Positions 985 through 37,969 of a stretch of 39,484 nt of DNA are shown one piece after another. Position numbers and translations under genes: made by a program. The stretch comes from Lachnospiraceae bacterium (lineage in GTDB: Bacteria; Bacillota; Clostridia; Lachnospirales; Lachnospiraceae). The stretch's first letter is position 1. Each line of letters opens with the position of its first letter. The stretch is taken from positions 1 to 39,484 of the forward strand of contig JAFZUW010000060.1 of assembly GCA_017618195.1 (NCBI GenBank). The letters run 5' to 3'. The notes under the pieces are model-generated. The model was not told the DNA's origin. It saw only the letters and a list, made by a program, of their open reading frames with translations, and searched no databases.

Positions 985-3207
985 ATGATATACAGACATA
1001 AACCGGCAACGGCGGCGATGCTGATACTGTGCCTTCTGCTATCCGTATTCAGCGGAGGATCGGTGTCGGCGGCACAGGGGACGATAACAGCGGGTACGGA
1101 GAAGACACCGGTATACTTTCTTCTGAAGGAAGAACCGGCAGGAAGATGGCTCGAAACATACAACTATATCCACACCATCAATATCAACGGGACTGTGTTC
1201 CCGGCGTATTGCGTGGAGTCCAGCAAACGGAGCCCGGCAAATGGGACGGCTTATTTTTCCATTGACGGATCGAAGATGCAGTACAGCGGGACGATGATGT
1301 CCGGCATGCGTGAGATCCTTCGGAACGGTTATCCGTACACAACCTGCATCTGCGGGATCGATTTCGGAACGGATACCGTAAAGGCGCAGGCCGCGACACA
1401 GGCCGCGGCGCGCATGTGGGCTTCTTACCGGAAGGAGCAGGAGAACGCGAATTACAACGTGTTCCTGTTCTGGAATCCCGAACCGAAGCGCGGCAGCGCA
1501 CTGGTAAAGGCAGGGACAGCGCCCGGAGCACAGGACGTTTATAATGCGGCCATCGCGCTGTTTCAGCTTGCAAAAAGCGGAAAGCAGACCGTGATCGAAG
1601 CGGCATGTGATTTCAGTGTGATAGAGTTCCCGAAGAAGCCGGAAAGCGGTGATTATCTGCTTGAATTTCAGGTGGGACTCACAAACTGCAGTTATGCGAA
1701 GCTGACCTTCGGGCTTGAAGCGGCGGAAATCGTCGAAGTGTCAAAGGGAACCGCAGACCGGATTGAAAACGGTGCGAAGGTGACTGTTCGCGTGCCCGGA
1801 ACGGTTGCAGGTTCGAGCATGTCGGTCATGGCGCACGGCTACAGCACGAAGACCGATCAGTCTCTTCAGTTTTATGCGGAACAGAGCGGACACATGCAGC
1901 GGCTTTTCGTCGGCAGAACGGACGTGTATGACGTGACAATCCGTGAATACAATATCACGGTGCCGGAGCCTCCTGAACCGCCCAAAGGTCCTGTTTCCAT
2001 CTCAAAAACAACTTTCTCCGGCAGTTCGTCCGGTTCCAAGAAGGAAGGCGATGAACAGCAGGAAGAACTGAAGGGAGCACGGCTGCAGATCCTCGATAAG
2101 GACCGAAACGTCATCTTTGAATGGGTGACGGACGGCAAAGCAAAAGAACTTGACGCAGTGCTGGAAGCAGGCGAGACTTATATTCTGCATGAGGTCTCGG
2201 CTCCGGCCGGTTATACGCTGGCGCCGGACCAGACATTTACCGTCCATGCCGACGGAACGCTCAGCAAAGTCGTCATGGAGGACCGCCCGACACACGTTGA
2301 GATCAGTAAGAAATCCGCATTGGACGGCTCGATGTTAAAGGGCGCGACCATGCAGATCCTGGACGGTCAGACGGTGGTTGCCGAGTGGGTAACGGACGGA
2401 AAGGTCCGGAGCTTCGTCGGGAAGCTGATCGCAGGCAAATCCTACACGCTCCATGAGGCGGAAGCGCCGAAGGGATATATAAAAGCGGAAGATGTGACAT
2501 TTACCGTCAGCAAAAACGGCGCCGTTGACAAAGTCGAAATGACCGACAACTACACACGGGTTCTGATCAGCAAGGTGAGTCTCGTGAACGGAGAGGAACT
2601 CGCCGGCGCGCAGATGACGCTTGAGGACAGCAAAGGGCAGGTAGTTGCCGATTGGGTGACCGACGGAACGGAGAAACGCATCGAAGCGGAATTGATTCCG
2701 GGAGAGCGGTATACGCTTCGCGAAGTGGCATCGCCGGACGGGTATCATATCGCGGAATCCGTACAGTTTCTTTATAATGCGGGAGAGACGAAGGTTGTGA
2801 TGAAGGACGCGCCGACCGTCTTGAAGACTTCGAAGCAGGACCGCGAGACGGGGCTTCCGCTTCCGGGCGCGCAGCTGCAGATTCTTGACGGCTCAGGCAA
2901 CGTGGTGGAGGAATGGATCAGCAACGGAACGATACACAACACGGTTGCGAAACTGACGGCAGGCGAGCGTTATGTCCTGCACGAGGTGAAGGCGCCGGAA
3001 GGGTATGTAAGAAGCGAGGACGTGGCATTTGTCGTGCCGAAGGAAGAACAGGAAGAGGAAATCGTCTTTTATAACGCAAAGATGGATCCGGGTATTCCGG
3101 GGACAGGCGACGGAACCGGACGATACGTGTTCTATGGGATCTTTTCCTTTCTGGCGGCAATCAACACGGGATATTTCAAACGAAGAAGCCGGAAGAAAAA
3201 AGAGTAG
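985..3207 (+). CDS. Cell-wall-anchored surface protein with thioester domain and four SpaA-type repeats
   Basis: Predicted surface adhesin of 740 residues, probably contacting host or neighbouring cells. Residues 1-30 form a signal peptide (hydrophobic core LILCLLLSVF). Next is a TQXA-type thioester domain: Cys76 in AYCVE and Gln139 in TQAAARMW are the expected partners of the internal thioester bond. Four SpaA/CnaB-like repeats of about 88 residues follow, starting near 335, 436, 524 and 612. Each has an early ISK-type lysine and a late YxLxE...AP.GY stretch, the places where isopeptide bonds form in this fold. The C-terminus has IPGTG (704-708), a hydrophobic segment and the tail KRRSRKKKE, a sortase sorting-signal layout with Ile in place of Leu. 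No sortase gene is in the window. GAAAGGA at 969-975 supports the start. The XRE gene begins 21 bases after the stop. Confidence 0.85.
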   Translation: MIYRHKPATAAMLILCLLLSVFSGGSVSAAQGTITAGTEKTPVYFLLKEEPAGRWLETYNYIHTININGTVFPAYCVESSKRSPANGTAYFSIDGSKMQYSGTMMSGMREILRNGYPYTTCICGIDFGTDTVKAQAATQAAARMWASYRKEQENANYNVFLFWNPEPKRGSALVKAGTAPGAQDVYNAAIALFQLAKSGKQTVIEAACDFSVIEFPKKPESGDYLLEFQVGLTNCSYAKLTFGLEAAEIVEVSKGTADRIENGAKVTVRVPGTVAGSSMSVMAHGYSTKTDQSLQFYAEQSGHMQRLFVGRTDVYDVTIREYNITVPEPPEPPKGPVSISKTTFSGSSSGSKKEGDEQQEELKGARLQILDKDRNVIFEWVTDGKAKELDAVLEAGETYILHEVSAPAGYTLAPDQTFTVHADGTLSKVVMEDRPTHVEISKKSALDGSMLKGATMQILDGQTVVAEWVTDGKVRSFVGKLIAGKSYTLHEAEAPKGYIKAEDVTFTVSKNGAVDKVEMTDNYTRVLISKVSLVNGEELAGAQMTLEDSKGQVVADWVTDGTEKRIEAELIPGERYTLREVASPDGYHIAESVQFLYNAGETKVVMKDAPTVLKTSKQDRETGLPLPGAQLQILDGSGNVVEEWISNGTIHNTVAKLTAGERYVLHEVKAPEGYVRSEDVAFVVPKEEQEEEIVFYNAKMDPGIPGTGDGTGRYVFYGIFSFLAAINTGYFKRRSRKKKE

Positions 3208-9752: not shown

Positions 9753-10601
9753 ATGAGCTATGCTGATGAGGTATTTATCCGGATGTGCAGGGACGTTTTG
9801 GAGAACGGAACGAGCACGGAAGGCGAAGCGGTACGTCCGCATTGGGAAGACGGAGCCGCTGCATATACGATCAAAAAGTTCGGCGTTGTAAACCGGTACG
9901 ATCTCAGTAAGGAATTCCCGGCACAGACGCTTCGTAAGACGCCGATCAAGTCCGCAACGGACGAGCTTTTGTGGATCTGGCAGAAGAAGAGCAACAACGT
10001 TAACGATTTCGGGCAGCACATCTGGGATTCGTGGGCCGATGAGACCGGGTCTATCGGAAAGGCATACGGCTACCAGATGAGCGTGAAGCACCAATACAAA
10101 GAGGGCATGTTCGACCAGGTGGACCGCGTACTTTACGACCTTCAGCATACGCCGTACAGCCGCCGCATTCTGACGAACATTTACGTGCATCAGGATCTGC
10201 ATGAGATGCATCTGTATCCGTGCGCGTACAGCATGACCTTTAACGTGACGAAGCCGAAGGACGGCGGCAAGCTCGTGTTGAACACGATCCTCAACCAGCG
10301 CTCGCAGGACATCCTTGCGGCAAATGCGTGGAACGTCGCACAATATGCGGTTTTGACACACATGTTCGCGCAGGTTTGCGATATGCAGGTCGGCGAGTTC
10401 GTGCACGTCATCGCGGACGCCCATATTTACGATCGCCACATTCCGATCGTGAAGGAACTGATTGAGCGCCCGACCTTCCCGGCGCCGAAGTTCAAACTGA
10501 ATCCCGAGATCAAGAATTTCTACGATTTCACAAAGGACGACGTGGAGCTTACCGATTATCAATTCGGACCTCCGGTCGGAAAGATTCCGGTAGCGATTTA
10601 A
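9753..10601 (+). CDS. thyA: Thymidylate synthase (ThyA type)
   Basis: Converts dUMP to dTMP with methylenetetrahydrofolate and releases dihydrofolate, which FolA (encoded at 13978-14493) recycles. The 282 residues are close to the usual 264-316 of the family. Cys157 in LYPCAYS is the catalytic nucleophile. YSRRILTN near 131, QRSQD near 184 and DAHIYDRH near 225 are the conserved phosphate- and nucleotide-binding parts. AAGGGGG about 8 bases before the ATG supports the start. The gene follows nrdD after a terminator, so both are dNTP-supply genes, but I could not place a separate promoter with confidence. Confidence 0.93.
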   Translation: MSYADEVFIRMCRDVLENGTSTEGEAVRPHWEDGAAAYTIKKFGVVNRYDLSKEFPAQTLRKTPIKSATDELLWIWQKKSNNVNDFGQHIWDSWADETGSIGKAYGYQMSVKHQYKEGMFDQVDRVLYDLQHTPYSRRILTNIYVHQDLHEMHLYPCAYSMTFNVTKPKDGGKLVLNTILNQRSQDILAANAWNVAQYAVLTHMFAQVCDMQVGEFVHVIADAHIYDRHIPIVKELIERPTFPAPKFKLNPEIKNFYDFTKDDVELTDYQFGPPVGKIPVAI

Positions 10602-10620
10602 AAGGCTCGCGAGACGGGGC

Positions 10621-10648
10621 AAGCCGGACGGAACGCATTGTCCGGCTT
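10621..10648 (+). other. Hairpin after thyA without T tract
   Basis: AAGCCGGAC (10621-10629) and GTCCGGCTT (10640-10648) form a perfect 9-bp stem with a ten-base loop. The lack of a T run makes it an unlikely terminator; it may stabilise the 3' end. Confidence 0.5.
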
Positions 10649-10687
10649 ACATGAAAAGAGATTATTGTCCTTCCTTAATCAAAACAG

Positions 10688-10725
10688 AAAGACCGAAACT
10701 CATTCGATGGGTTTCGGTCTTTTTA
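10688..10725. terminator. Terminator between thyA and the converging plsC
   Basis: AAAGACCGAAAC (10688-10699) and GTTTCGGTCTTT (10711-10722) form a perfect 12-bp stem. TTT follows on the plus strand, and TTTCTGTTTT on the minus strand makes it usable from both sides. Confidence 0.85.
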
Positions 10726-10815
10726 CGCTTTGTCAGATTACCGGATGAAGCAGCGGGAGACGGCTTGAAAGACCATCCGCGCTGCGCCTGCGGTCTCAGG
10801 ACAGAGGATGGAGGC

Positions 10816-11541
10816 TCATTTGCCGAGAGCCTGTTTCATCTTTTGGTAAAGCTCTTCGCCGAGTTCAACGGAACGCTTTGCTTTGGCGTCCTCGGCAGAT
10901 ACGACTTCGAGGATACGGAGCGTTACATGCGTCTTTTTGGGGAAACGGTCACGGACAAGTTCGGTCCCCTCGATCGTAGCAACGACAATCGGAACGTTGG
11001 CCTTCTGCGCTATCTTCAATACACCGGCGTGGAACGGAAGCAGTTCATTCGAGAAGCTCCGCTTTCCTTCGGGATATACGCCGACCGAGCAGACATTGTT
11101 CTGAATGAGCTTGGCGGAATGGTTGATGATCTTCAGCGCATCCCGCGGATCGTCCCGCTCGAGGGGCATGTAGCAGACTCTTCTTACGATGCGTCCGAAG
11201 ACGGGCATAATCAGATTTTCCTTTTTCGAGATGAAGGAAAGCTGATATTTCCGCATTGCTTTGGCCGTAACGAGCGGATCGAAATTGGACCGGTGGTTGC
11301 AAATCAGAAGAAAACGTCCGGAAGGCATCTTCTCGTCGCCCTCGTAATGAATCTTCACGCGTGAGAAGAAAAGGCCGATCCGTACGAGCGTGTTGTAAAG
11401 CCAGCGGTAGAAAGCATTGTCGGTTTCGTAAAGCTTGTTCGGATTGACAAACCGTCCCGCAACGAAAGGTACGAATACGTAAAATGCAAACAGTGCTACG
11501 GGAATCAGAAGGATAATGCCGATGATCAAAAATGGGTTCAT
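10816..11541 (-). CDS. plsC: 1-acyl-sn-glycerol-3-phosphate acyltransferase (PlsC family)
   Basis: Membrane enzyme that adds the second acyl chain to lysophosphatidic acid to give phosphatidic acid. The 241-residue protein starts with a membrane segment (residues 4-26). The acyltransferase HX4D motif is His83 to Asp88 in NHRSNFD, and the glycerophosphate-binding motif is VYPEGKRS near 145. Its ATG overlaps the histidine-kinase stop codon (ATGA, 11538-11541), and GAGGAG lies just upstream. It is the last gene of the operon plsY - regulator - kinase - plsC. The upstream enzyme PlsY makes its substrate, so the two catalytic steps flank the two-component system. Confidence 0.9.
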   Translation of the reverse strand: MNPFLIIGIILLIPVALFAFYVFVPFVAGRFVNPNKLYETDNAFYRWLYNTLVRIGLFFSRVKIHYEGDEKMPSGRFLLICNHRSNFDPLVTAKAMRKYQLSFISKKENLIMPVFGRIVRRVCYMPLERDDPRDALKIINHSAKLIQNNVCSVGVYPEGKRSFSNELLPFHAGVLKIAQKANVPIVVATIEGTELVRDRFPKKTHVTLRILEVVSAEDAKAKRSVELGEELYQKMKQALGK

Positions 11542-28221: not shown

Positions 28222-28611
28222 ATGGCAGACAACTATATCAGGATTCTCGGAATCGTGATGGCTTTTCTGGTTTTCTTCTGCCTTGCGGACATCATTTCCT
28301 TTGCGCTTTTCGCTTTGGATAAGAAGAGGACGGTGCTCGGCATGCCGCATATCCCTGCGGTTCTGCTTCTTTTATCGAGCGTATTGGGCGGAATCGGCGG
28401 ATTGATCGGAATGTGGACGTGCGAGGAGAGAAGCGGCAAGCGGATATTCCGCATATGGGTCGGATTGTTTGCGTTTCTTCAGGTACTGCTGATTCTGTAT
28501 GTGATAGTCGGTTACGTGCTTCTTCTTTTGGAAGTCGGAGGCTGGCTGATGGATGTTTTCGCCAAAGCCGTTAAAGTGATTATGGATTCGGCTGTCGGCG
28601 ACCTGCAGTAA
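28222..28611 (+). CDS. Small membrane protein, DUF1294-like, copy 1
   Basis: A 129-residue protein with three to four membrane segments (about 7-27, 45-64, 78-100). ALDKKRTVLGMPHIPAVLLLLS, then GGIGGLIGMWTC, then KRIFRIWVGLF follow the DUF1294 pattern of a charged YxxxKxxA region, an IPE-like turn and a GGxxGAxxGM loop. The match is looser than in the next gene. GGAGGG is upstream of the ATG. No function is known for DUF1294 proteins. It is nine bases from the next gene, its probable paralogue. Confidence 0.6.
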   Translation: MADNYIRILGIVMAFLVFFCLADIISFALFALDKKRTVLGMPHIPAVLLLLSSVLGGIGGLIGMWTCEERSGKRIFRIWVGLFAFLQVLLILYVIVGYVLLLLEVGGWLMDVFAKAVKVIMDSAVGDLQ

Positions 28612-28620
28612 GGAGGCAAT

Positions 28621-28962
28621 ATGATTATATTGGTTCTTGCAGCCGGTTTATGGTTCCTGATGAATTCCGTTGCGTTCTATCTGTATTATTCGGATAAGAA
28701 AAAGGCGATTCATCATGAATGGCGCATCCCGGAATGGGTGCTTCTTCTGATAGCAGTACCGGGACCGTTCGGTGCGCTCCTCGGGATGCTGTCGTTTCAC
28801 CACAAAACGAAGAAATGGTATTTCTGTTTTTGGGTCGGATTGTGGATCGTTTTGCAGATTCTGTTTGTTGTATTCGTGATACTGGCCATGAAGGCGTTTG
28901 CGGATTCACTCGCAGACGGAATAGCGAATTTCTTTAAATCATTTAAAAACATGCCCGGCTGA
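28621..28962 (+). CDS. DUF1294 family membrane protein, copy 2
   Basis: A 113-residue membrane protein with about three helices. The family signature is clear: YYSDKKKAIHHEWRIPEWVL followed by GPFGALLGMLSFHHKTKKWY, close to the usual Y..DK..A....WRIPE......GG..GA..GM...HHKT. Function is not known for this family. AGGAGG lies just before the ATG. Together with the gene before it, it looks like a tandem duplication that has diverged. It precedes galM by 23 bases. Confidence 0.8.
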   Translation: MIILVLAAGLWFLMNSVAFYLYYSDKKKAIHHEWRIPEWVLLLIAVPGPFGALLGMLSFHHKTKKWYFCFWVGLWIVLQILFVVFVILAMKAFADSLADGIANFFKSFKNMPG

Positions 28963-28985: not shown

Positions 28986-30050
28986 ATGAGTATTGTGAAG
29001 CAGAGCTTCGGAAAGACCAAGGAGGGACAGAAGGCCACTCTTTACACCATCGAGAACAAGAACGGTATGAAGGTTTCCTTCTGTGATTACGGCGCACTGA
29101 TCGTCGGCATTTATGTGCCCGACCGCAACGGCAAGATCGAGGATATTGCTCTCGGATATGACGATGTAAGCGGTTATGAGGACAACGGCTGCGGTTTCGG
29201 TTCCTTTATCGGACGTCACGCAAACCGTATCGGCGGCGCAAAGTTTACAATCGACGGCAAGACTTATGAACTTGCGAAAAATGACAACGGTATCAACAAC
29301 CTGCACAGCGGCCCCGTAGGTTACAATCATATGATGTATGACGTGGAAGTATTTACCGACGAGGACAGCACGAGCATCGCATTCTCGAGAATGAGTCCCG
29401 ACGGCGAGCAGGGCTTCCCGGGCGACCTCGACGTGACCGTTACCTATACCGTAACCGATGACAACGAGCTTGCAATCGAGTACTTCGCGGTAAGCGACAA
29501 GAAGACTGTTATCAACCTTACGAACCACACCTACTTCAACCTTGCCGGACAGGCAAGCGGAGATATCCTTGACCAGGAAGTATGGGTTAAGAGCGACAAA
29601 ATCACTCCTACCGACCGTTTCCTGATCCCTACCGGCGAGTTCATGGATGTTACCGGAACGCCTATGGATTTCCGTACCCCCAAGAAGGTCGGCAAGGATA
29701 TCAACGCCGATTTCGAGCCTTTGAAGCTGGCAGGCGGATACGATCACAACTATGTGCTCAACCTCGATATCGAAGAGGATGAGATGGATCTTGTTGCAAG
29801 CCTTTACGATGAGAAGAGCGGCCGTTACATGGAAGTTTACACCGATCTTCCGGGCATGCAGCTGTATTCCGGAAACTTCATGAGAAAGGAAACCGGCAAG
29901 GACGGAGCTCAGTATGACCGCCGTCACGGTATCTGCTTCGAGACGCAGTTCTTCCCGAACGCATGCAACACGCCTGCATTTGAGTCGAGCGTTTTTGATG
30001 CGGATGTTCCGTTTGACTATTGCACGGTTTACGCATTTTCGGTAAAATAG
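28986..30050 (+). CDS. galM: Aldose 1-epimerase (mutarotase)
   Basis: Interconverts the alpha and beta anomers of glucose or galactose in the cytoplasm. The 354-residue protein has GRHANRIGGAKF (near 77-88), the catalytic His in LTNHTYFNLAG (near 177-187), the sugar-binding GGYDHNYVL (near 250-258), the turn MQLYSGNF, and the catalytic Glu in GICFETQFFPNACN (near 316-329). The ribosome binding site GAAAGGGG lies ahead of the ATG. It follows the two small membrane proteins with close spacing. No Leloir genes (galK, galT, galE) are in the window. Confidence 0.93.
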   Translation: MSIVKQSFGKTKEGQKATLYTIENKNGMKVSFCDYGALIVGIYVPDRNGKIEDIALGYDDVSGYEDNGCGFGSFIGRHANRIGGAKFTIDGKTYELAKNDNGINNLHSGPVGYNHMMYDVEVFTDEDSTSIAFSRMSPDGEQGFPGDLDVTVTYTVTDDNELAIEYFAVSDKKTVINLTNHTYFNLAGQASGDILDQEVWVKSDKITPTDRFLIPTGEFMDVTGTPMDFRTPKKVGKDINADFEPLKLAGGYDHNYVLNLDIEEDEMDLVASLYDEKSGRYMEVYTDLPGMQLYSGNFMRKETGKDGAQYDRRHGICFETQFFPNACNTPAFESSVFDADVPFDYCTVYAFSVK

Positions 30051-30056
30051 TATAAA
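30028..30056 (+). promoter_or_regulatory. Putative promoter of the duplicated membrane-protein operon
   Basis: TTTACG (30028-30033), a 17-base spacer and TATAAA (30051-30056). It overlaps the galM stop codon. The hairpin TGCAGG-GAAG-CCTGCA at 30062-30077 follows. Confidence 0.5.
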
Positions 30057-30094
30057 GTACTTGCAGGGAAGCCTGCATGAAACGGAGGAAAACC

Positions 30095-30181
30095 ATGCCG
30101 GAGAGTCTGACAAGCTTTGCATTGATTCAGTCTTGTACGGCATGGTTTTTGGCATTCAAATGGGCAGAAAAACAGTTATAG
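30095..30181 (+). CDS. 28-residue leader ORF ahead of the A-B-C membrane operon
   Basis: ATG at 30095 follows an excellent ribosome binding site (GGAGGA, five bases upstream). The frame encodes 28 residues (starting MPESLTSFALIQSCTAWFLA, ending FKWAEKQL) and stops with TAG at 30179-30181. It covers the start of the first transporter gene, which begins at 30160 in another frame without a clear ribosome binding site, so translation of that gene is probably coupled to this ORF. The peptide is hydrophobic with a positive C-terminus and might also be a small membrane protein. No family is recognised. Confidence 0.5.
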   Translation: MPESLTSFALIQSCTAWFLAFKWAEKQL

Positions 30182-31221
30182 TCGGAACACACAGTGTTAT
30201 GCATGCAGTAGTGGATTTCGGCTGCGCCGCGCTTGTCATGGGAATTGCCAGGGAAGTGGGACTCAGTCTGCCGCTTGCTGTTACCGTTATCGTTCTGTAT
30301 GATTTCTGTGCATTCGCGTTGCAGTTTCCGGTCGGTATCCTGACAGACCGTTTGAACTGCAATTCGCTCATTGCCGCGATTGGTTGTGTCCTCGTGGCGC
30401 TCGGTTTTCTCCTTCGGCCGTGGGCAGTCACGGCATGCGTGATTGCGGGAATCGGAAATGCATTATATCATGTCGGGGGCGGCGTGGATGTTCTGAATCT
30501 TTCCGACCGAAAAGCGGCATTGTCCGGTATCTTTGTGTCGACCGGTGATTTGGGACTGTTCCTCGGAGTGAACGCAAACCGCCTGCCGATTAGGGCAACG
30601 GTCATGTTTATTCTGTTACTGGTATCGGCGGCAATTCTTTTGGGGCTATACTATCTGATTAAATGCCGTTACCGGATTGAAAATGTTCCCTGCAAACGTC
30701 TCATCGAGCCGGTTTCCCTATCCGACAGGCAGAAGCTGATTCTGGTTTGCATGATGAGTACGGTGTATCTGCGGAGCTGCTTCGGGGTATGCATGTCATT
30801 TTCCTGGAGGAGTGCTTTCACCGGCGGTCTCATTGCTGCCTCGGCCATTATGCTCGGGAAAATGTTAGGCGGAATCGTCGGGGACCGGCTCGGGTGGATG
30901 AAAACATCTGTATCCTCGCTTCTTCTTGCGGCGGTACTGTTCGTGTTCGCAGAGAAAAGCATGGTCTGCGGACTGGCGGCGCTGCTGTTGTTTAATATGA
31001 CGATGCCGATTACGCTTTGTGTCACGGTTGATTTGTTCCGAAACCGCAAAGGGGCGGCGTTCGGACTGACATCCGCCATGCTGTTCTTCGGACTGATTCC
31101 TGCATTTGACAGGACGGCGGAGCTTCTGAAGAAGATTTCCTCCATTGTGGCGGGCGCCGTTGTTTCCGCTGCTTTGCTGTTAATTGGGTTAATCGCATAC
31201 CGGAAATGGAGGACCGAATGA
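30160..31221 (+). CDS. MFS-like membrane transporter, copy A1
   Basis: A 353-residue membrane protein with about ten to twelve helices. The N-terminal THSVMHAVVDFGCAALVMGI and the inter-helix loop FPVGILTDRLN fit the major facilitator fold. GIGNALYHVGGGVDVLNLS (near 96-114) and GGIVGDRLGWMKTSV are shared with the A2 gene at 33944. I chose ATG 30160 because it aligns with the A2 start; no ribosome binding site is seen, so coupling to the short ORF before it is likely. The frame stays open further upstream without a good start. It overlaps B1 by four bases (ATGA). The substrate is unknown. Confidence 0.75.
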   Translation: MGRKTVIVGTHSVMHAVVDFGCAALVMGIAREVGLSLPLAVTVIVLYDFCAFALQFPVGILTDRLNCNSLIAAIGCVLVALGFLLRPWAVTACVIAGIGNALYHVGGGVDVLNLSDRKAALSGIFVSTGDLGLFLGVNANRLPIRATVMFILLLVSAAILLGLYYLIKCRYRIENVPCKRLIEPVSLSDRQKLILVCMMSTVYLRSCFGVCMSFSWRSAFTGGLIAASAIMLGKMLGGIVGDRLGWMKTSVSSLLLAAVLFVFAEKSMVCGLAALLLFNMTMPITLCVTVDLFRNRKGAAFGLTSAMLFFGLIPAFDRTAELLKKISSIVAGAVVSAALLLIGLIAYRKWRTE

Positions 31222-31568
31222 ATCTGTTGCCGGAATATTTTAACATGGTTTCCTTTAATCTGTTTCTGACGCTGATCGTCGAGGTGCCGGTTGCTTTTTT
31301 GCTTGGCGTACGGAAGTCTGAGGATTTGGAAACGGTAGTGTTTACGAATGCAGTGTCCAATCCGGTTTTGATTACGGTGGTGTTTCTGCTGCTTCGCCTT
31401 AACATAATCCTCGGAACCGTGAACGTCGTTATCCTTTTGATGGAAATCATCGTGGTTTTCGCCGAGGGAGCCGTCTATCGCAGATTTCTGCGGGGAGGGA
31501 AAATAAACCCGTTCCTGCTTTCGTTCCTTGCAAATGTCTGTTCGTTCGCCGTCGGTGCGATATTATAA
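31218..31568 (+). CDS. Small membrane protein of unknown family, copy B1
   Basis: A 116-residue protein with three to four membrane helices. The ATG overlaps the A1 stop (ATGA), with TGGAGGA upstream. Positions shared with B2 at 32633 include NLFxTL..E(V/I)P in helix 1, LGVR, a conserved N....NP between helices 1 and 2, LL.R, and ME..VV.AEG..Y.R before NPF.LS near the C-terminus. Conserved Glu and Asn residues inside helices suggest more than a structural role. I recognise no named family. It is an integral part of the six-gene operon. Confidence 0.7.
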   Translation: MNLLPEYFNMVSFNLFLTLIVEVPVAFLLGVRKSEDLETVVFTNAVSNPVLITVVFLLLRLNIILGTVNVVILLMEIIVVFAEGAVYRRFLRGGKINPFLLSFLANVCSFAVGAIL

Positions 31569-31620
31569 CGTTTATCGGAAAGAATCTTGTAATCCGTCAG
31601 TTTGAAAGGGGGACAGTATC

Positions 31621-32655
31621 ATGCTGCATAAGGGAAGAAAAGCGTTGAGAAAGCGTATGGCCGGGGCGGCTTTCTTAACATGGATTGTATTGTTGGGAAT
31701 GAGAGGAATCTGTTTTGCCAATCCGATTGCTCCGTCAGCGCCCTATTACGGAAGCGTGCGGCTGTTTGCGGTATATGCGGCGGCAAGTCTGAGCGTGTTG
31801 ATGTTTCCGACCGGATTGTATCTGCTGCTGTGGAGACTCGTGACATTTTCCGCAAAGCGAGAAAAATCGATCAAGGACCATGTGCTTATTATATCCTATG
31901 TGATTATCGGACTCCTCTTGGGGCAGTATTATATCGGATTCGTCTTTCTGGGAGTCGGCTTGATAAAAGGAACAAAGGCGTTCTTTGCGGATGTGCGGCC
32001 GGAGAAAGGAAGACTTACCGGAATACGGACAGCCGTATGTGTATGGTGTTACAATGCCGTACTGATTGCGGTGTGGAGACCGTTCAGTTATTTTTTGGCA
32101 GGCCTTGACGGATTCGGCGGATACGCTTATGAAACCACCGCTTTTTCGGGGGTTCAGAACTATTTATCTTTCGTGCATTGGTATCCTTCCTACGATCTTA
32201 TCATCTTCCTCGTACTTTGCGCAGTGTGGATATTTACCATCCTGGTATATTGGGATAAAAAAGGAGGAGAGGAATTCGTTAAGATAATCCCGGATATCAT
32301 TACGGTGTTCGGAATGCTGTTTACGGGATACTGGTTCTGGTATTTCGGGGGAATCATATTCTATTTTCTGGCATTGGGATTTGCGATGTGCTTTCTGTCC
32401 GGTTTTCCGGCGTATTACCGGGAACTGTTCCTTCCCGGACATCCGAAAGAAGAGAAAGCCGTGGAACAGGATGTGGCGGAGATGGATGCCGCGGAAATCA
32501 TAAAGGAGCTGGAGGATTCCGGGGAGAGTGCAGACAGAACGCTTTCTCTTAGAAAACTGCGGAAACAGCTGGTGAGAAAAAGGCTTAGCAGCAATATCGG
32601 GGAAGAAAAGCAAGCGGACAGGGAGATGAAAGATGGATATTCTGACGGACAATGA
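31621..32655 (+). CDS. Polytopic membrane protein with signal peptide, copy C1
   Basis: A 344-residue protein. An N-terminal signal-like helix ends at FANPIAPSAP, near residue 33, with an exposed NP.AP stretch. About six membrane helices follow. The loop GLYLLLWRLVTFSAKREKSI (near 66-85), DHVLII, and FYFLALGF near 254 correspond to GLYLLVWRL, DHIDIV and FYYLAWRL in C2. The last 75 residues form a charged cytoplasmic tail with a coiled-coil look (AEMDAAEIIKELEDSGESAD). The ribosome binding site AAGGGGGA is upstream. Its stop lies 23 bases inside B2. Function unknown. Confidence 0.7.
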   Translation: MLHKGRKALRKRMAGAAFLTWIVLLGMRGICFANPIAPSAPYYGSVRLFAVYAAASLSVLMFPTGLYLLLWRLVTFSAKREKSIKDHVLIISYVIIGLLLGQYYIGFVFLGVGLIKGTKAFFADVRPEKGRLTGIRTAVCVWCYNAVLIAVWRPFSYFLAGLDGFGGYAYETTAFSGVQNYLSFVHWYPSYDLIIFLVLCAVWIFTILVYWDKKGGEEFVKIIPDIITVFGMLFTGYWFWYFGGIIFYFLALGFAMCFLSGFPAYYRELFLPGHPKEEKAVEQDVAEMDAAEIIKELEDSGESADRTLSLRKLRKQLVRKRLSSNIGEEKQADREMKDGYSDGQ

Positions 32656-33019
32656 GCTGCTGCGTACCTATATCGGAACTCTTTCATACAATCTCTTCGG
32701 AACGCTGGCAATCGAAATACCGCTTGCGTTGGCCCTCGGGGTACGCGGCAGGAAGAATGCATGGACAGTCTTTGAGGTAAATGTGCTGACCAACCCGATT
32801 GTCGTAACGATTCTGTTCCTGCTTGTAAGGACGCAGCTTTGCATGCCTGCCGTGCGTGGAATCCTGTTCCTGATGGAGTGTGTCGTAGTTCCGGCGGAAG
32901 GAATGCTCTATAAACGAAGGCTGACGGAGACTCCGATGAATCCGTTTAAGCTGTCGCTTATCCTGAATGCGGTTTCCTACGGAACCGGCGTGATTCTCGA
33001 ATTGATATCGGTACTGTAA
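32633..33019 (+). CDS. Small membrane protein of unknown family, copy B2
   Basis: Paralogue of B1 with 128 residues and three to four helices. It shares the same positions as B1, for example YNLFGTLAIEIPLALALGVR and MECVVVPAEGMLYKRR before NPFKLSLILN. It begins 23 bases inside the C1 gene with GGGAG upstream, which indicates translational coupling. It has an N-terminal extension of seven to eight residues and a longer C-terminus (LELISVL) than B1. No function can be assigned. Confidence 0.7.
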   Translation: MDILTDNELLRTYIGTLSYNLFGTLAIEIPLALALGVRGRKNAWTVFEVNVLTNPIVVTILFLLVRTQLCMPAVRGILFLMECVVVPAEGMLYKRRLTETPMNPFKLSLILNAVSYGTGVILELISVL

Positions 33020-33042
33020 TGCTTTGGCGAGGGAGGATTATT

Positions 33043-33951
33043 ATGAGAGCAAAAAACAGAGGACGTATCATAATCGCAGTTCTTGCGGGCCTTCTTTCGG
33101 TTATGACCGGAGTGTGCTATGCGGACATGGGAAATCCGGCAGGTCTGCTGATTCTTGTTCCGTTCATGCTGATACTTTTTATCTATGCGCTTACCGCTAT
33201 TGTAACAATTCTATTTGTTGTAATCGGTCTATATCTCCTTGTGTGGAGGCTGATTCATCGGAAAGCAAAGCGCAAGCATCGTCTGGTTGATCATATTGAT
33301 ATTGTTATTTCCGTACTCGGAGGGTTTCTCTGCAGCGGAGTCATTATCGGGTTTCCGATGTATTTTAAAGCATTGCGGAAGGCAGCACAGTATTTCTTCG
33401 ATGATGTGGCGGCAAATGATACGGAACGCCCGAATTGGAACGTGTTTTGTTGTGTTGCCGGTGAGATCGTTTATTCCGCTTTGCTCTGGATCCTTGTGTT
33501 GATTCCCTTAGACGGACGGATTTACCGGGCTCGGTTTTTCGGTTCTTATTTCAGGACAATGATGTGTGACTCGATTTATGTGACGGTATACAGGACCCCG
33601 GTCTGGATAGTTTGTTTCGGCGGCGCATTGATTCTTTTGTGGAGCGGGATACTGATCGTTTACCATATCCGGTGCCGGAAAGAACCGGAGCGATTGAAGA
33701 AAAGGATTCCGGACGAACTGGCCGTGTACGGATTTTTGATTCTGGGGTTTATATGGCTGCACTTCGGAGGAATCGCCTTTTACTATTTGGCATGGCGGCT
33801 CGGAAAGAGTGTTTGGACGGGAGAGCCGGTGCAGATCATAAAGAAAGATGTTTCCGAAACGGAGGAGACAGCCGAGACGCAGGAGGCGCTTCGGAAAATG
33901 CAATCACTTGACGGAATTATCAAAAAGGACGGACAGTCTGAGGATGAATAA
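33043..33951 (+). CDS. Polytopic membrane protein with signal peptide, copy C2
   Basis: Paralogue of C1, 302 residues. The signal helix ends at CYADMGNPAG near residue 25-30, and the exposed NPAG corresponds to the ANPIAP of C1. GLYLLVWRLIHRKAKRKHRL (near 66-85), LVDHIDIV and FYYLAWRL match C1. About seven helices are visible. A shorter charged C-terminal tail follows (SETEETAETQEALRKMQ). The ATG at 33043 was chosen because GGGAGG lies six bases upstream; an in-frame ATG at 33019 overlaps the B2 stop and has no site. It overlaps A2 by eight bases. Function unknown. Confidence 0.7.
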   Translation: MRAKNRGRIIIAVLAGLLSVMTGVCYADMGNPAGLLILVPFMLILFIYALTAIVTILFVVIGLYLLVWRLIHRKAKRKHRLVDHIDIVISVLGGFLCSGVIIGFPMYFKALRKAAQYFFDDVAANDTERPNWNVFCCVAGEIVYSALLWILVLIPLDGRIYRARFFGSYFRTMMCDSIYVTVYRTPVWIVCFGGALILLWSGILIVYHIRCRKEPERLKKRIPDELAVYGFLILGFIWLHFGGIAFYYLAWRLGKSVWTGEPVQIIKKDVSETEETAETQEALRKMQSLDGIIKKDGQSEDE

Positions 33952-35014
33952 AAAGCTTACAATTACCGGCGTATACAGTCTGATGCACGCTCTTGTTGAC
34001 ATGTCCTGCGCGGTATTGTTTACGGGTGTATTGACGAACTCCGGTTATGCTGCGGGATACGGGGCGTTTGCGGTGCTTGCGTACGATTTCTTTGCATTTG
34101 TCCTGCAGTTTCCGTTCGGGATGATCGCGGACAGGCTGAATCGGAATGCGCTCGTTTCCGCGCTCGGATGCGTGCTGGTGGGCGCAGCATTTGCTTTTCG
34201 GATGTGTGCTTTCCCGGCGTGTATTGTCGCGGGGATCGGGAACGCGCTGTTCCATGTCGGCGGAGGCGTCGACGTGCTGAACGTTTCGGAAGGAAAAGCA
34301 TCCCTCTCGGGCGTTTATGTTTCCACGGGCGCGATGGGACTGTATCTCGGAATTCAATGGTATCATAAAGCGTATCTGATCCCGTGTCTTGCCGGGGCGC
34401 TTGCAGCCGGGACGGTCCTTCTTGTGTGGCTGTTCCGGAAGATCCGGCGCGATTATCAGGTAAAAAATGCCGCTTGTGAACGCATTTTCGAACTGCCGGA
34501 GCTTACGAGCGAGCAGCATTTGATCGTAGTCTGTCTGCTGCTTACGGTGTGTGTACGGAGCTGTCTCGGAATGGTTATGGGGTTTACCTGGAAGAGCGGC
34601 TTTTATACCGGGCTTGCGGCGGTGGCAGCAGTCGTGCTCGGAAAGGCTTGCGGCGGCATTATCGGAGACCGGCTCGGGTGGAAGAAGACTTCGGTCACTT
34701 CGCTTGTGATCGCAGCGGTGCTTTTCTACCCGGCATTTGACAATATGATCTGCGGACTGTTTGCTCTGTTCTTCTTTAATATGACGATGCCGATCACGCT
34801 GACGGCGATGGCCAATCTGTTTCCGAAACGGATGGGCGCGGCTTTCGGTGTGACAAGCGCGGCGCTTTTCGTCGGAGCGGTGCCGGTATTCCTCGGATAC
34901 GGCGGAATGATATTCCAAAGACCGGTACTGATCGGAACAACGCTTGCATCGGCTGCGGTTCTGTTCTGCGGATTGTGGTATTACGGGAAGATAAAGGCAA
35001 TAACTGAGGAGTAA
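33944..35014 (+). CDS. MFS-like membrane transporter, copy A2
   Basis: Paralogue of A1, 356 residues, with about twelve helices. Shared blocks are YSLMHALVDMSCAVLFTGV near the start, AYDFFAFVLQFPFGMIADRL, GIGNALFHVGGGVDVLNVSE, GGIIGDRLGWKKTSVTSL and FFNMTMPITL. These fit an MFS transporter with no known substrate. The start overlaps C2 by eight bases and the gene ends the operon; a terminator follows at 35134. A1 and A2 bracket the B and C genes, so a duplication of the set followed by rearrangement is likely. Confidence 0.78.
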   Translation: MNKKLTITGVYSLMHALVDMSCAVLFTGVLTNSGYAAGYGAFAVLAYDFFAFVLQFPFGMIADRLNRNALVSALGCVLVGAAFAFRMCAFPACIVAGIGNALFHVGGGVDVLNVSEGKASLSGVYVSTGAMGLYLGIQWYHKAYLIPCLAGALAAGTVLLVWLFRKIRRDYQVKNAACERIFELPELTSEQHLIVVCLLLTVCVRSCLGMVMGFTWKSGFYTGLAAVAAVVLGKACGGIIGDRLGWKKTSVTSLVIAAVLFYPAFDNMICGLFALFFFNMTMPITLTAMANLFPKRMGAAFGVTSAALFVGAVPVFLGYGGMIFQRPVLIGTTLASAAVLFCGLWYYGKIKAITEE

Positions 35015-35133
35015 TCGGGACAGAGCGACGAAACGGACGGAGAGTAATTAAATCCGTACACAGGATTCACCGAAGCCATCCGAAAGGAATATATCGAACG
35101 GCTTAAGCCGCTCATCCCTCTGCCAGAATACAG

Positions 35134-35159
35134 GGGCTGCATTTTCTGCAGCCCTTTTT
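35134..35159 (+). terminator. Terminator of the duplicated membrane operon
   Basis: GGGCTGCA (35134-35141) and TGCAGCCC (35147-35154) pair perfectly around TTTTC, followed by five T. It lies 120 bases after the A2 stop codon, within the 224-base gap to the response regulator. Confidence 0.85.
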
Positions 35160-35238: not shown

Positions 35239-35907
35239 ATGTGCAGAATTCTGCTGGCTGAGGACAATGAAAATTTACGCGAGGTCATGACCGATTACCT
35301 CGAGGACAACGGATTTCAGGTCACGGCGGTTCCGAACGGAGCGGAGGCGTGGGAAACATTCTGCGAGCAGGAATTCCGGCTTGTGCTTCTTGATGTGATG
35401 ATGCCTAAGATGAACGGTTTTGAAGTGTGCCGGCGCATCCGAGCGAAGGAGGATGTGCCGATCTTATTCCTCACAGCGCGCGTACAGGAAGAGGATCAGC
35501 TCAGAGGCTACGCGCTCGGCGCGGACGAGTATATCGTGAAGCCGTTCTCCCTGCCGGTTCTTGTGGCCAAATGCAAAGCCATTTTAGAGCGGGCAGGCGG
35601 ACGTGCAATGACGGAAGCGGTCATAACCGCACCGGGCCTCAGTGTCAACACGCTGACCGGCAAGGTTACGGCAGACGGCGGGGAGATTGACTTGCCGGCG
35701 TTGGACCTCAAACTGCTCCGTTATTTCATGGCGAATCAGGGACGCATCCTTACGAGAGAGCAGATACTTGACCGGATCTGGGGCATGGATTACGACGGCA
35801 GCGACCGCGTTGTCGATACGCACATCAAAAAGCTCCGTAAGGCGCTCGGAAAGCAGGGCTCCCACATTGAGACGGTTATCAAGGAAGGGTATCGCTTTGT
35901 TCCGTAA
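35239..35907 (+). CDS. OmpR/PhoB-family response regulator
   Basis: A 222-residue two-component regulator. The receiver domain has the acidic pair in AEDN, the phosphorylated Asp52 in LLDVMMPKMNG, Thr in LTARV and Lys in VKPFS. The winged-helix output domain (near 124-222) contains DLKLLRYFMANQGRILTREQ and ends VIKEGYRFVP. AAAGGAGA lies upstream of the ATG. It is 25 bases from the kinase gene, so the pair is an operon. It lies just after the six-gene membrane operon, which it might control, but no operator can be assigned. Confidence 0.93.
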   Translation: MCRILLAEDNENLREVMTDYLEDNGFQVTAVPNGAEAWETFCEQEFRLVLLDVMMPKMNGFEVCRRIRAKEDVPILFLTARVQEEDQLRGYALGADEYIVKPFSLPVLVAKCKAILERAGGRAMTEAVITAPGLSVNTLTGKVTADGGEIDLPALDLKLLRYFMANQGRILTREQILDRIWGMDYDGSDRVVDTHIKKLRKALGKQGSHIETVIKEGYRFVP

Positions 35908-35932
35908 ATCGCAGTGAGAGTGGGGAATGTTA

Positions 35933-37969
35933 ATGAAACGAAAGAAAAAAATCAGTAATATTGTAAAAACCTGTATTATCATCGAACTGATCGCGGTTCT
36001 GGCTGTTGCTGCGGTGTGTTACTTCTTATACCAAAGCAAGCAGTCGATGGTTCAGACTGAAGTTGAAAAGTACAGGACGCAGCTGGCAGAGTATGTCAGA
36101 GGGATGGAATGGCAGTCGCAGAACTTTCGCGGACTTCCGACCTATGTCGAAATACTGTACAGCTGGTATGAGACCGTTTCGGAAGATCCGGATTATGAGA
36201 ATGAATTTGCCGCGGCAGTATTCGGCGAGGACGGAGACTCCTGCATGTATCTGAAGGGAGACATTGCGCTTCTCTATCGGCAGAAGTGCACGGATATTTC
36301 CAAAAAGGAATATCAGGAGACGGTCTGGGATCTTACGGAATACATGACGGAGGGGAGTATACGGGAACTGTTGGACAGTCTGGAGAGTGACCGGAAACTG
36401 ACAATCCGCGTATTGCCGACAGTCAGAGAATTCCGCGGACGGATCTCGGAAGACGGAACGATCACCCCGACACAGGTAAGCCTTTATTATATCGGCGGGT
36501 ACGCCGTTTTCTCTGACAGCAGGAAACGTATGGAATTGACCGATAAAAAAGTTGTTCTGCAGTCGGCGGATTATAAAGAAGACGACAATTTTACATGGAC
36601 ATGGCCGGAATCAACCCCGGACGATTATAAAGACGTAAATGCGGACGGAGTCCAGATCGAGTGGGTAGACGATGAGACTCATATAGTGGCTTTCCGCCAA
36701 AGTCCGAGACTCAGCGGACTGATGGAGTACTGGCCGGAGTTAGAGCGTAAGCCGCGTTACGCGGCATATATTGTGAGCTTCGGCTCTGAAGAAGTATGGG
36801 TGACGGTTCCCGATAAAGATGTTTCCGCGGACAGGACCGTATCCGCAGTCAGAACGCTTACCCCCGGCAGCACCGGAGGAGCAAAGGGCGGCATATTCCT
36901 CCTGTTCGATGTGAACCGGATCACGTGGAACAAGGCAAAGCCGATGATCCTGGTGCTCATCGCGTTCGGTCAGGCATTGGCCTTCATGGCAATGATTCTC
37001 TGGTTTGAAGCAAAGCGGAGAAGTTCTCAGACGCGCCGGATCAGAAATACGTTTATCAACGCGATGGCTCATGAACTGAAGACGCCGGTGGCAGTCGTAC
37101 GCAACACGGCGGAATACCTTGCAACAGGCTGCAAGCCGGAGAAGCAGGAACACTATCTCGGAGTTCTGACACGTGAGAGCGAGTCAATGAACGAGCTTTT
37201 GAACAGGATGCTCACGTACACGCGCGTAATAGATGATAAGGTAACGCTTAACCGAAGTGAAGTAAACCTGATCGAGATTGCCGAAAAGGTTCTTGATTCT
37301 TATTCGGACATGATGGCGGCAAGAGGGATGAATGTTGTGTTTTGCAATAAAATGCCGCTTGTCGTGAATTGTGACGCTGCCTTGATGGAGATGGTAATCG
37401 ACAATCTTATTGCAAACGCTGTCCGTCACGGCGAACCGGACAGCACAATCGTAATCGATAAGGAAGAGATGCGGTTCTCCGTCTGGAACAAGACCGAACC
37501 GCTCAGCAAATCGGAGCTTTCCGAAATCTGGACTCCGATGTTCCAGACCGACCGCCGGACTGAACAGTCCGAGACGGGAGGCATGGGGCTTGCGCTTTGC
37601 GCCGGTATTCTGAATACGCACGGAGTCATGTACGGGGCGTACAATGAAAGGAAGACGATTGAGCGGGACGGCGTATCCCGCGAGGAGGACGGGCTTGAGT
37701 TCTTCTTTGACTTTGCCCGCGTACCGGTTACGGAGAAGGGCCGCAGGTTTGCGTTTATCAATCTCATCACGGTCGGGATCAGTTTACTCAATGCTTTAAT
37801 ATGGTCTTTCCAGTATGTCAGCCAGTTGAAAATGAGGGGGCTCAGGTTCGGAATCGTGATCCTTTGGCTTATCGCTGCGGTAATCAACCTGTTGGCGTAT
37901 GTATGCTCAAAGCGCGGTCCCGGAGCAATCCGAAAGAAGAAAAAGCTGAAACCGCTCGGAACCATGTAA
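35933..37969 (+). CDS. Sensor histidine kinase with large external domain and two extra C-terminal membrane helices
   Basis: A 678-residue kinase. TM1 (about 13-33) and TM2 (about 334-357) enclose a 300-residue external sensor region. The H-box is NAMAHELKTP (His380) and the N-box is NLIANAVRHGE. The classical DxGxG loop is replaced by VWNKTEPLSKSE, a variant seen in some Gram-positive kinases; GGMGLALCAG follows. After the catalytic domain the protein does not end: two more membrane helices (about 606-628 and 640-660) and a basic tail, KRGPGAIRKKKKLKPLG, are added. That ending is unusual for a kinase. The ATG at 35933 is six bases after GGGGA, better than the ATG at 35927. The ligand is unknown. 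Confidence 0.88.
   Translation: MKRKKKISNIVKTCIIIELIAVLAVAAVCYFLYQSKQSMVQTEVEKYRTQLAEYVRGMEWQSQNFRGLPTYVEILYSWYETVSEDPDYENEFAAAVFGEDGDSCMYLKGDIALLYRQKCTDISKKEYQETVWDLTEYMTEGSIRELLDSLESDRKLTIRVLPTVREFRGRISEDGTITPTQVSLYYIGGYAVFSDSRKRMELTDKKVVLQSADYKEDDNFTWTWPESTPDDYKDVNADGVQIEWVDDETHIVAFRQSPRLSGLMEYWPELERKPRYAAYIVSFGSEEVWVTVPDKDVSADRTVSAVRTLTPGSTGGAKGGIFLLFDVNRITWNKAKPMILVLIAFGQALAFMAMILWFEAKRRSSQTRRIRNTFINAMAHELKTPVAVVRNTAEYLATGCKPEKQEHYLGVLTRESESMNELLNRMLTYTRVIDDKVTLNRSEVNLIEIAEKVLDSYSDMMAARGMNVVFCNKMPLVVNCDAALMEMVIDNLIANAVRHGEPDSTIVIDKEEMRFSVWNKTEPLSKSELSEIWTPMFQTDRRTEQSETGGMGLALCAGILNTHGVMYGAYNERKTIERDGVSREEDGLEFFFDFARVPVTEKGRRFAFINLITVGISLLNALIWSFQYVSQLKMRGLRFGIVILWLIAAVINLLAYVCSKRGPGAIRKKKKLKPLGTM

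Follow-up and report, generated by a model that had tools for sequence, protein, structure and literature searches.

What is the functional unit of an operon in which three families of membrane protein are each encoded twice, and what might such a unit do? The question is raised by a stretch of 39,484 nucleotides (nt) from a Lachnospiraceae bacterium (contig JAFZUW010000060.1 of assembly GCA_017618195.1, contig C20 of a 2.75-Mb genome in 82 contigs), hereafter the window, in which six genes in the order A1-B1-C1-B2-C2-A2 lie on the forward strand at 30160-35014, overlapping or closely spaced as judged from the open frames and the sequence. A preliminary description of this DNA took A-B-C to be the unit, duplicated and without a described counterpart. 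Comparison with related genomes has moved the conserved core to A-B, and in the reading favoured here, to which we give a probability of about one half, A and B would be the two subunits of a secondary transporter that works with an outward-facing partner of variable kind and is encoded beside a two-component system. The gene set appears to be so far undescribed, with the nearly constant pairing of the pump with B suggesting a two-part pump; literature searches aimed at an A-B-like system found no description, most of the subscription literature lying outside the search.

The linkage of A to B was followed in three collections. Among 291 evenly sampled Clostridia genomes, strong matches to A (E<1e-50) occur in 16, the window's own being one of them, and in all 16 B is on the same contig and strand, adjoining A or one gene apart. 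Nine more genomes of the class matched A only weakly (E 6e-11 to 1e-3, partial in eight), and these matches were read as ordinary proteins of the major facilitator superfamily (MFS). In a sample of the phylum A was found in 5 of 299 genomes and B in the same arrangement in all five, two of which are also in the class sample (the B of G417 is truncated where its contig stops, and the A of G549 is split in two, a further partial copy lying at the edge of a contig). Likewise, the collected loci contain 73 distinct A genes, 70 of which have a B no more than 1.5 kb away on their own strand; B follows A in 60 of these and precedes it in the other 10, which all belong to the window's genus (L063, apparently the same contig as L046 from G008, was left out of the locus counts). 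Of the three A genes lacking such a B, one (L083) ends at a contig edge, another (L074) has its nearest B on the opposite strand at a distance of 1.8 kb, and the last (L036) has none. Spacing was measured for 67 pairs, with B downstream in 57, 32 of which overlap A, most commonly by 4 nt, and 43 of which overlap A or lie within 30 nt of it. Two of the alignments, named A3 and A4 (not genes), used 17 of 19 and 16 of 19 rows.

By contrast C was found in 9 of 61 relatives, all within 1 of 40 genera, and among the 291 Clostridia it is clear only in the window's own genome, with one other weak match (E 9e-4) carrying two internal stops. C, which is also fast-evolving, is thus essentially genus-restricted, and the core that is conserved consists of A and B without C. 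The neighbourhood comparison that had been proposed as a check revealed real conservation, which argues for a functional unit, with the unit itself redrawn since B is tied to A across the Clostridia and Erysipelotrichaceae and C essentially to one genus. The neighbours of A-B point to no particular pathway; none recurred among the 25 of 83 Pfam families listed for 65 of 84 candidate A-B neighbours, nor among the 25 of 62 families listed for 45 of 70 long-B-gene neighbours plus 10 more.

Protein A belongs to the MFS by predicted fold and appears Fsr-like by sequence. Both A1 (30160..31221, forward strand, unit I) and A2 (33944..35014, forward strand, unit II) are predicted carriers with 12 transmembrane (TM) segments. 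The AlphaFold2 model of A2, built on a 57-row alignment (mean predicted local distance difference test score 95.5, predicted template modelling score 0.92), has 12 helices when kinked ones are counted as one and matched 306 chains in the PDB at E<=0.001 (best 3.6e-8), led by carriers of the DgoT, VMAT and FLVCR types. While A1 and A2 themselves have no Pfam match at E<=1, MFS_1 was matched by 24 of 57 A relatives at E<=0.01 (best 8.8e-12), 57 of 58 matches having been used in the family alignment, in keeping with the MFS-like transporter first proposed. Six Escherichia coli MFS proteins, each as a single sequence, were ranked against the A profile, with Fsr leading (probability 96.6, score 75.5, 293 columns) ahead of AraJ (41), YajR (34), MdfA (28), EmrD (27) and AmpG (15). 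The muropeptide permease AmpG was rejected as a model for A, having a profile probability of 0.2 over 25 columns. With Fsr, a fosmidomycin efflux pump, A shares H..nD in TM1, G.G...FH in TM4 and a G-rich TM5, but the PE of the FHPE motif is missing from A, which has about 50 residues fewer than the E. coli protein (406 aa) and is accompanied by B, whereas ybaL and ushA are annotated as the neighbours of fsr in E. coli. Near-invariant residues within the helices of A are H15 and D19 (TM1), D63 (motif A), H104 (TM4), R205 (TM7) and K234 (TM8), a pattern that would be that of an ion-coupled carrier. A1 keeps all 34 of the family-conserved positions selected for checking. The direction of transport favoured, weakly, by the likeness to Fsr is export.

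Protein B is a small four-helix protein, encoded by B1 (31218..31568, forward strand, 116 aa, unit I) and B2 (32633..33019, forward strand, 128 aa, unit II). The AlphaFold2 model of B2 (mean predicted local distance difference test score 93.6) has helices at residues 2-34, 40-65, 71-96 and 104-127, which by their composition were taken to be membrane helices. In an alignment of 60 of 62 matches, one duplicate and one partial being left out, E28, N50, E82, E89, N112 and G119 are invariant in 60 of 60, placing three glutamates and two asparagines within helices, and T24, N54, P55, Y93 and S115 are conserved in at least 90%. All 11 conserved residues checked are kept in B1. Neither B1 nor B2 had a match in Pfam, NCBIfam or PADLOC, none of the 60 B members matched PHROGs, and in the PDB B had no sequence relative and a best Foldseek fold at E 1.1 (threshold 0.001). 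Pfam searches with the B relatives gave scattered weak matches, DUF2062 being the most frequent (4 members, best 0.0063) and ArsP_1 having the lowest E (0.00037, 2 members), which we read as chance. As far as was found, B would belong to no described family in Pfam, NCBIfam, PHROGs, PADLOC or the PDB. The spacing of its residues resembles that of VanZ, likewise a family of small proteins with several TM helices and conserved polar residues, but comparison of the B profile with 14 VanZ-domain stretches from relatives gave a probability of only 0.2 (E 0.28) and the candidate was rejected. Profile and family searches gave no convincing match for B or for C, and homologues were not confined to places apart from A, so that the earlier description was not refuted on either count.

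We infer a physical complex in which A would be an MFS carrier of the Fsr type with 12 helices, presumably driven by protons in view of the near-invariant H15, D19, H104, R205 and K234, and B its dedicated four-helix partner, the intrahelical glutamates and asparagines of which would either pack against A or join the transport path. A third, variable protein that is exported or membrane-anchored (C in this genus, SH3-type or other proteins elsewhere) would face outward as an adaptor or substrate contact. Two anciently diverged units lie in one apparent operon, and the signal sensed by the adjacent two-component system, a putative regulator, probably comes from the envelope. If the carrier has two subunits and an outer partner that varies, this would explain why A and B are strictly linked, why the polar residues of B are fixed and why the third gene is exchanged. 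More tentatively, A-B may represent an undescribed heteromeric class of MFS transporter, in which the Fsr-type carrier would work only with B, the glutamates of B would join coupling or substrate binding and the B domain would have been reused, in fused form, in a separate sensor or transport role.

There are partial precedents for such an arrangement. NRT2 proteins of plants belong to the MFS. In plant nitrate transport NRT2 needs NAR2 as a dedicated partner protein, as would be the case for A with B; that system is eukaryotic and carries nitrate, and NAR2 is not a demonstrated relative of B (PMC4232926). Likewise, in mycobacterial lipid export the MFS carrier Rv1410 works with the outward-facing partner LprG, which is a lipoprotein, the core partner B here being a four-helix membrane protein (PMC10576003).

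The six genes form one apparent operon between two candidate intrinsic terminators on the forward strand. The first, at 30095..30150, belongs to an upstream gene and lies directly 5' of A1 (fold -26.9 kcal/mol, z -5.1, followed by a T run), with the hairpin also present in the related genome G018; the second closes the operon at 35134..35154 (a hairpin followed by TTTTT, z -3.0). A hint of a 28-codon leader peptide before A1 was discarded, as the region proved to be the first of these hairpins. The range initially assigned, 30028-35159, opens within the C-terminal part of the upstream coding sequence and closes shortly after the second terminator. C1 (31621..32655, alternative start 31657, unit I) and C2 (33043..33951, alternative start 33019, unit II), both on the forward strand, have a signal-peptide-like N-terminus and several hydrophobic segments by hydropathy. 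A1 and B1 overlap by 4 nt, C1 and B2 by 23 nt and C2 and A2 by 8 nt, just as had been noted, with a 52-nt gap separating B1 from C1. That each family occurs twice was borne out, the pairs of the six forward frames having identities of 47% over 350 residues for A1/A2, 42% for B1/B2 (E 4e-30) and 30% for C1/C2 (E 9e-20), which is far beyond chance, and the motifs previously quoted for the A, B and C pairs are all present. A genome search revealed no A besides A1 and A2 and no B besides B1 and B2.

The origin of this doubling was approached through trees (A 19, B 22 and C 19 rows, with long branches flagged among the outgroups) and through the chromosomal site. A1 groups with the A of G018:C110 (support 100/98) and A2 with that of G008 (100/100), while C1 groups with the C of G018 (97/99) and C2 with that of G008 (99/100). 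The B tree is weaker, placing B2 with the B of G008 (82/26) and B1 with the B genes of L054, L055, L057 and L058 (89/84). The site is marked by the upstream gene (28986..30050, forward strand, aldose-1-epimerase-like and named by eye), which is 99% identical in G008 and 95% in G001, and the last 48 residues of which open contig G018:C110 (92%). The cargo at the site differs, being a short C alone in G001 (neither two-component gene was found in its 16-kb stretch), A-C-regulator and then the contig end in G018, B-C-A-regulator-kinase in G008, and both units in the window's genome. Because the trees split the copies and sister species carry one unit each at the site, the doubling consists of two old paralogous units side by side and is not a recent tandem duplication; the duplication of a functional unit first suggested is thereby only half borne out.

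The juxtaposition may nevertheless be an evolutionary accident, in which a second unit came to lie next to an existing one and unit I is in the course of disappearing, a scenario we regard as unlikely though the best of those set against our proposal. In its favour, sister species keep one unit only at this site, and compared with G018:C110 the window lacks 83 nt between the terminator and the start of A1, including GGAGAGGG, which in the G018 leader is likely a ribosome-binding site, and A1 starts about 10 nt past the terminator. Against it, A1, B1 and C1 are intact, every conserved residue checked in A1 is kept, and the ratio of nonsynonymous to synonymous substitution rates (dN/dS) of A1 against its G018 orthologue is 0.16, indicating purifying selection and a conserved coding sequence. 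It also concerns the doubling only and not the A-B unit itself.

The two-component system that had been seen to follow the operon is indeed present (35239-37969) but lies beyond the downstream terminator, and because of this it is probably a separate transcript from the A-B-C operon. It consists of an OmpR-type response regulator (35239..35907, forward strand, Pfam Response_reg and Trans_reg_C) and a 680-aa sensor histidine kinase (35927..37969, forward strand, Pfam HisKA and HATPase_c). The regulator adjoins the units in three species of the same genus and the kinase in the two whose contigs extend that far, with regulator orthologues that are 95% identical lying beside unit I in G018 and beside unit II in G008. 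The kinase is unusual in architecture, in that hydropathy places another two hydrophobic segments C-terminal to the ATPase domain (residues 608-659); these are also found in G008, with 63% identity for that part.

Between the window's genome and G008 identity falls from the regulator (95%) through A (90%), B (79%) and the kinase (71%) to C (50%), the least conserved of the five genes compared, with dN/dS of 0.05, 0.10, 0.15, 0.18 and 0.32, respectively. A and B are under purifying selection (dN/dS 0.10-0.16). Within the kinase, the outer domain is 62% identical and the kinase core 85%. The outward-facing parts thus seem to change fastest, which fits surface contact with a changing environment, although weakly constrained regions do likewise.

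Such rates would also be expected of self-protection, in which A-B-C would export or block a gut antimicrobial peptide or drug and the adjacent two-component system would sense the compound. An arms race could account for the divergence of C relative to A and B in the same two species and of the outer domain of the kinase relative to its core, and in keeping with this A resembles the Fsr efflux pump, the distribution is patchy and the cargo changes at one site. We consider self-protection improbable, as the six proteins match no known resistance or defence family, no bacteriocin family is among the neighbour Pfam matches listed (25 of 83 and 25 of 62 families) and few A-B loci of other genera have the two-component system next to them.

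B was also found away from A. It is present in 44 of the 291 sampled Clostridia genomes (about 15%), 28 of which lack a strong A; 24 of these were fetched and 23 carry a fused form, in which the B domain ends proteins of about 220-325 aa with a signal-peptide-like start and a GPKPS- or NSAEPPS-type ectodomain. In all, 25 such loci were fetched (examples are L047 2174-3046, L062 8131-9066 and L163-L186), recognised by eye from the signal-peptide and ectodomain start, with TNP changed to TQ and no name in Pfam for the fused form; L054, of a different kind, was excluded, and L172 and one 175-aa frame in L177 were left unclassified. The fused-B alignment used 23 of 25 loci, leaving out L165 and L171, and the fused and stand-alone profiles match at E 2e-22, a comparison that is partly circular as two fused rows are in both alignments. 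Long B frames beside A in L068, L071, L084, L096 and L151 were rejected as fusions, being frames that overlap A. That B is fused to secreted-type ectodomains in 25 loci without A, and retains there the same intrahelical acidic residues, suggests an activity of its own, and A and B may then form no complex, B acting by itself, as a membrane enzyme or as a sensor, in the pathway of A. This too we consider improbable, since B as a separate protein almost always adjoins A, unlike its fused form, which looks like two settings of a domain that needs a partner.

The third gene varies with the lineage. Within 2 kb of A on the same strand, 16 of 73 A genes have a family labelled c3, 9 of 73 one labelled c5 and 12 of 73 C, together 37 of 73. 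Members of c3 have a signal-peptide-like start, an ectodomain and a C-terminal helix, and those of c5 bacterial SH3 domains, with SH3_3 in 8 of 10 members; c3 had no SH3 match in Pfam, C and c3 showed no homology to each other, and no canonical lipobox was seen by eye in either. Elsewhere C is replaced by unrelated exported proteins or by nothing, and because it is essentially confined to the window's genus C may be regarded as the form that an outward-facing accessory protein takes locally, outside the core. Homology of C to the SH3-type third gene, or to the signal-peptide protein that follows A-B in L150, was unsupported. In L066 and L067, from related metagenome-assembled genomes, an LD-carboxypeptidase (Peptidase_S66, ~10251-11294) lies between an A-B-c3 set and a response regulator-kinase pair.

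That carboxypeptidase, found in one related pair of loci, together with the SH3 domains in 8 of 10 c5 members and the lipid-exporting MFS carrier and outer partner known for Rv1410-LprG (PMC10576003), could indicate envelope handling, in which A-B would carry a lipid or a piece of the cell wall through the membrane and the outer partner, SH3-type or C, would hand it to the wall or bind the wall. This is more doubtful still, given that A is not AmpG-like (profile probability 0.2), that C and c3 have no homology and that Pfam SH3 names occur only in c5 with none in c3. Anti-phage defence and a phage origin were rejected, the six proteins matching 0 PADLOC families at E<=0.1, B having no PHROG match and the only two such pairings searched, A2 in plasmids and B2 in phages, giving no match.

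Several observations weigh against the two-subunit transporter that we favour. The linkage of A to B is genetic only and a shared pathway would give the same linkage. None of the 25 fused-B loci has A within 1.5 kb, from which it follows that B can act without A. In two loci of the same genus (L054 and L057) B and C occur without a nearby A, as they do in L050, where however the contig stops within the locus, and unit I in G018 has A and C with no B between them. As regards the outer partner, 36 of 73 A genes have no c3, c5 or C within 2 kb. Unit I of the window may be poorly expressed because A1 lacks the 83-nt leader with its likely ribosome-binding site. Outside the genus regulators of the same blast cluster were found near A-B only in L066, L067 and L087, and since these are few and OmpR-type regulators are common no enrichment is claimed.

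Elsewhere in the window, at 985-3207, a 740-aa protein reads as a wall-anchored surface protein, SpaA-like by eye, with repeated LHEVxAPxGY-like blocks and a YCVESS stretch reminiscent by eye of thioester adhesins. At 28222-28962, a tandem pair of DUF1294 membrane proteins was matched in Pfam at E 2.9e-5 (24.7 bits, cut-off 25) and 6.2e-21.

MFS carriers are usually regarded as single-protein pumps. The A-B pair, distributed across the Clostridia and Erysipelotrichaceae and mostly in gut and rumen records, brings together one MFS lineage and a small membrane family that travels with it and has acidic residues fixed in its helices, and as such would offer a test case for pumps that need a dedicated membrane subunit, with B itself appearing to be an undescribed membrane domain.

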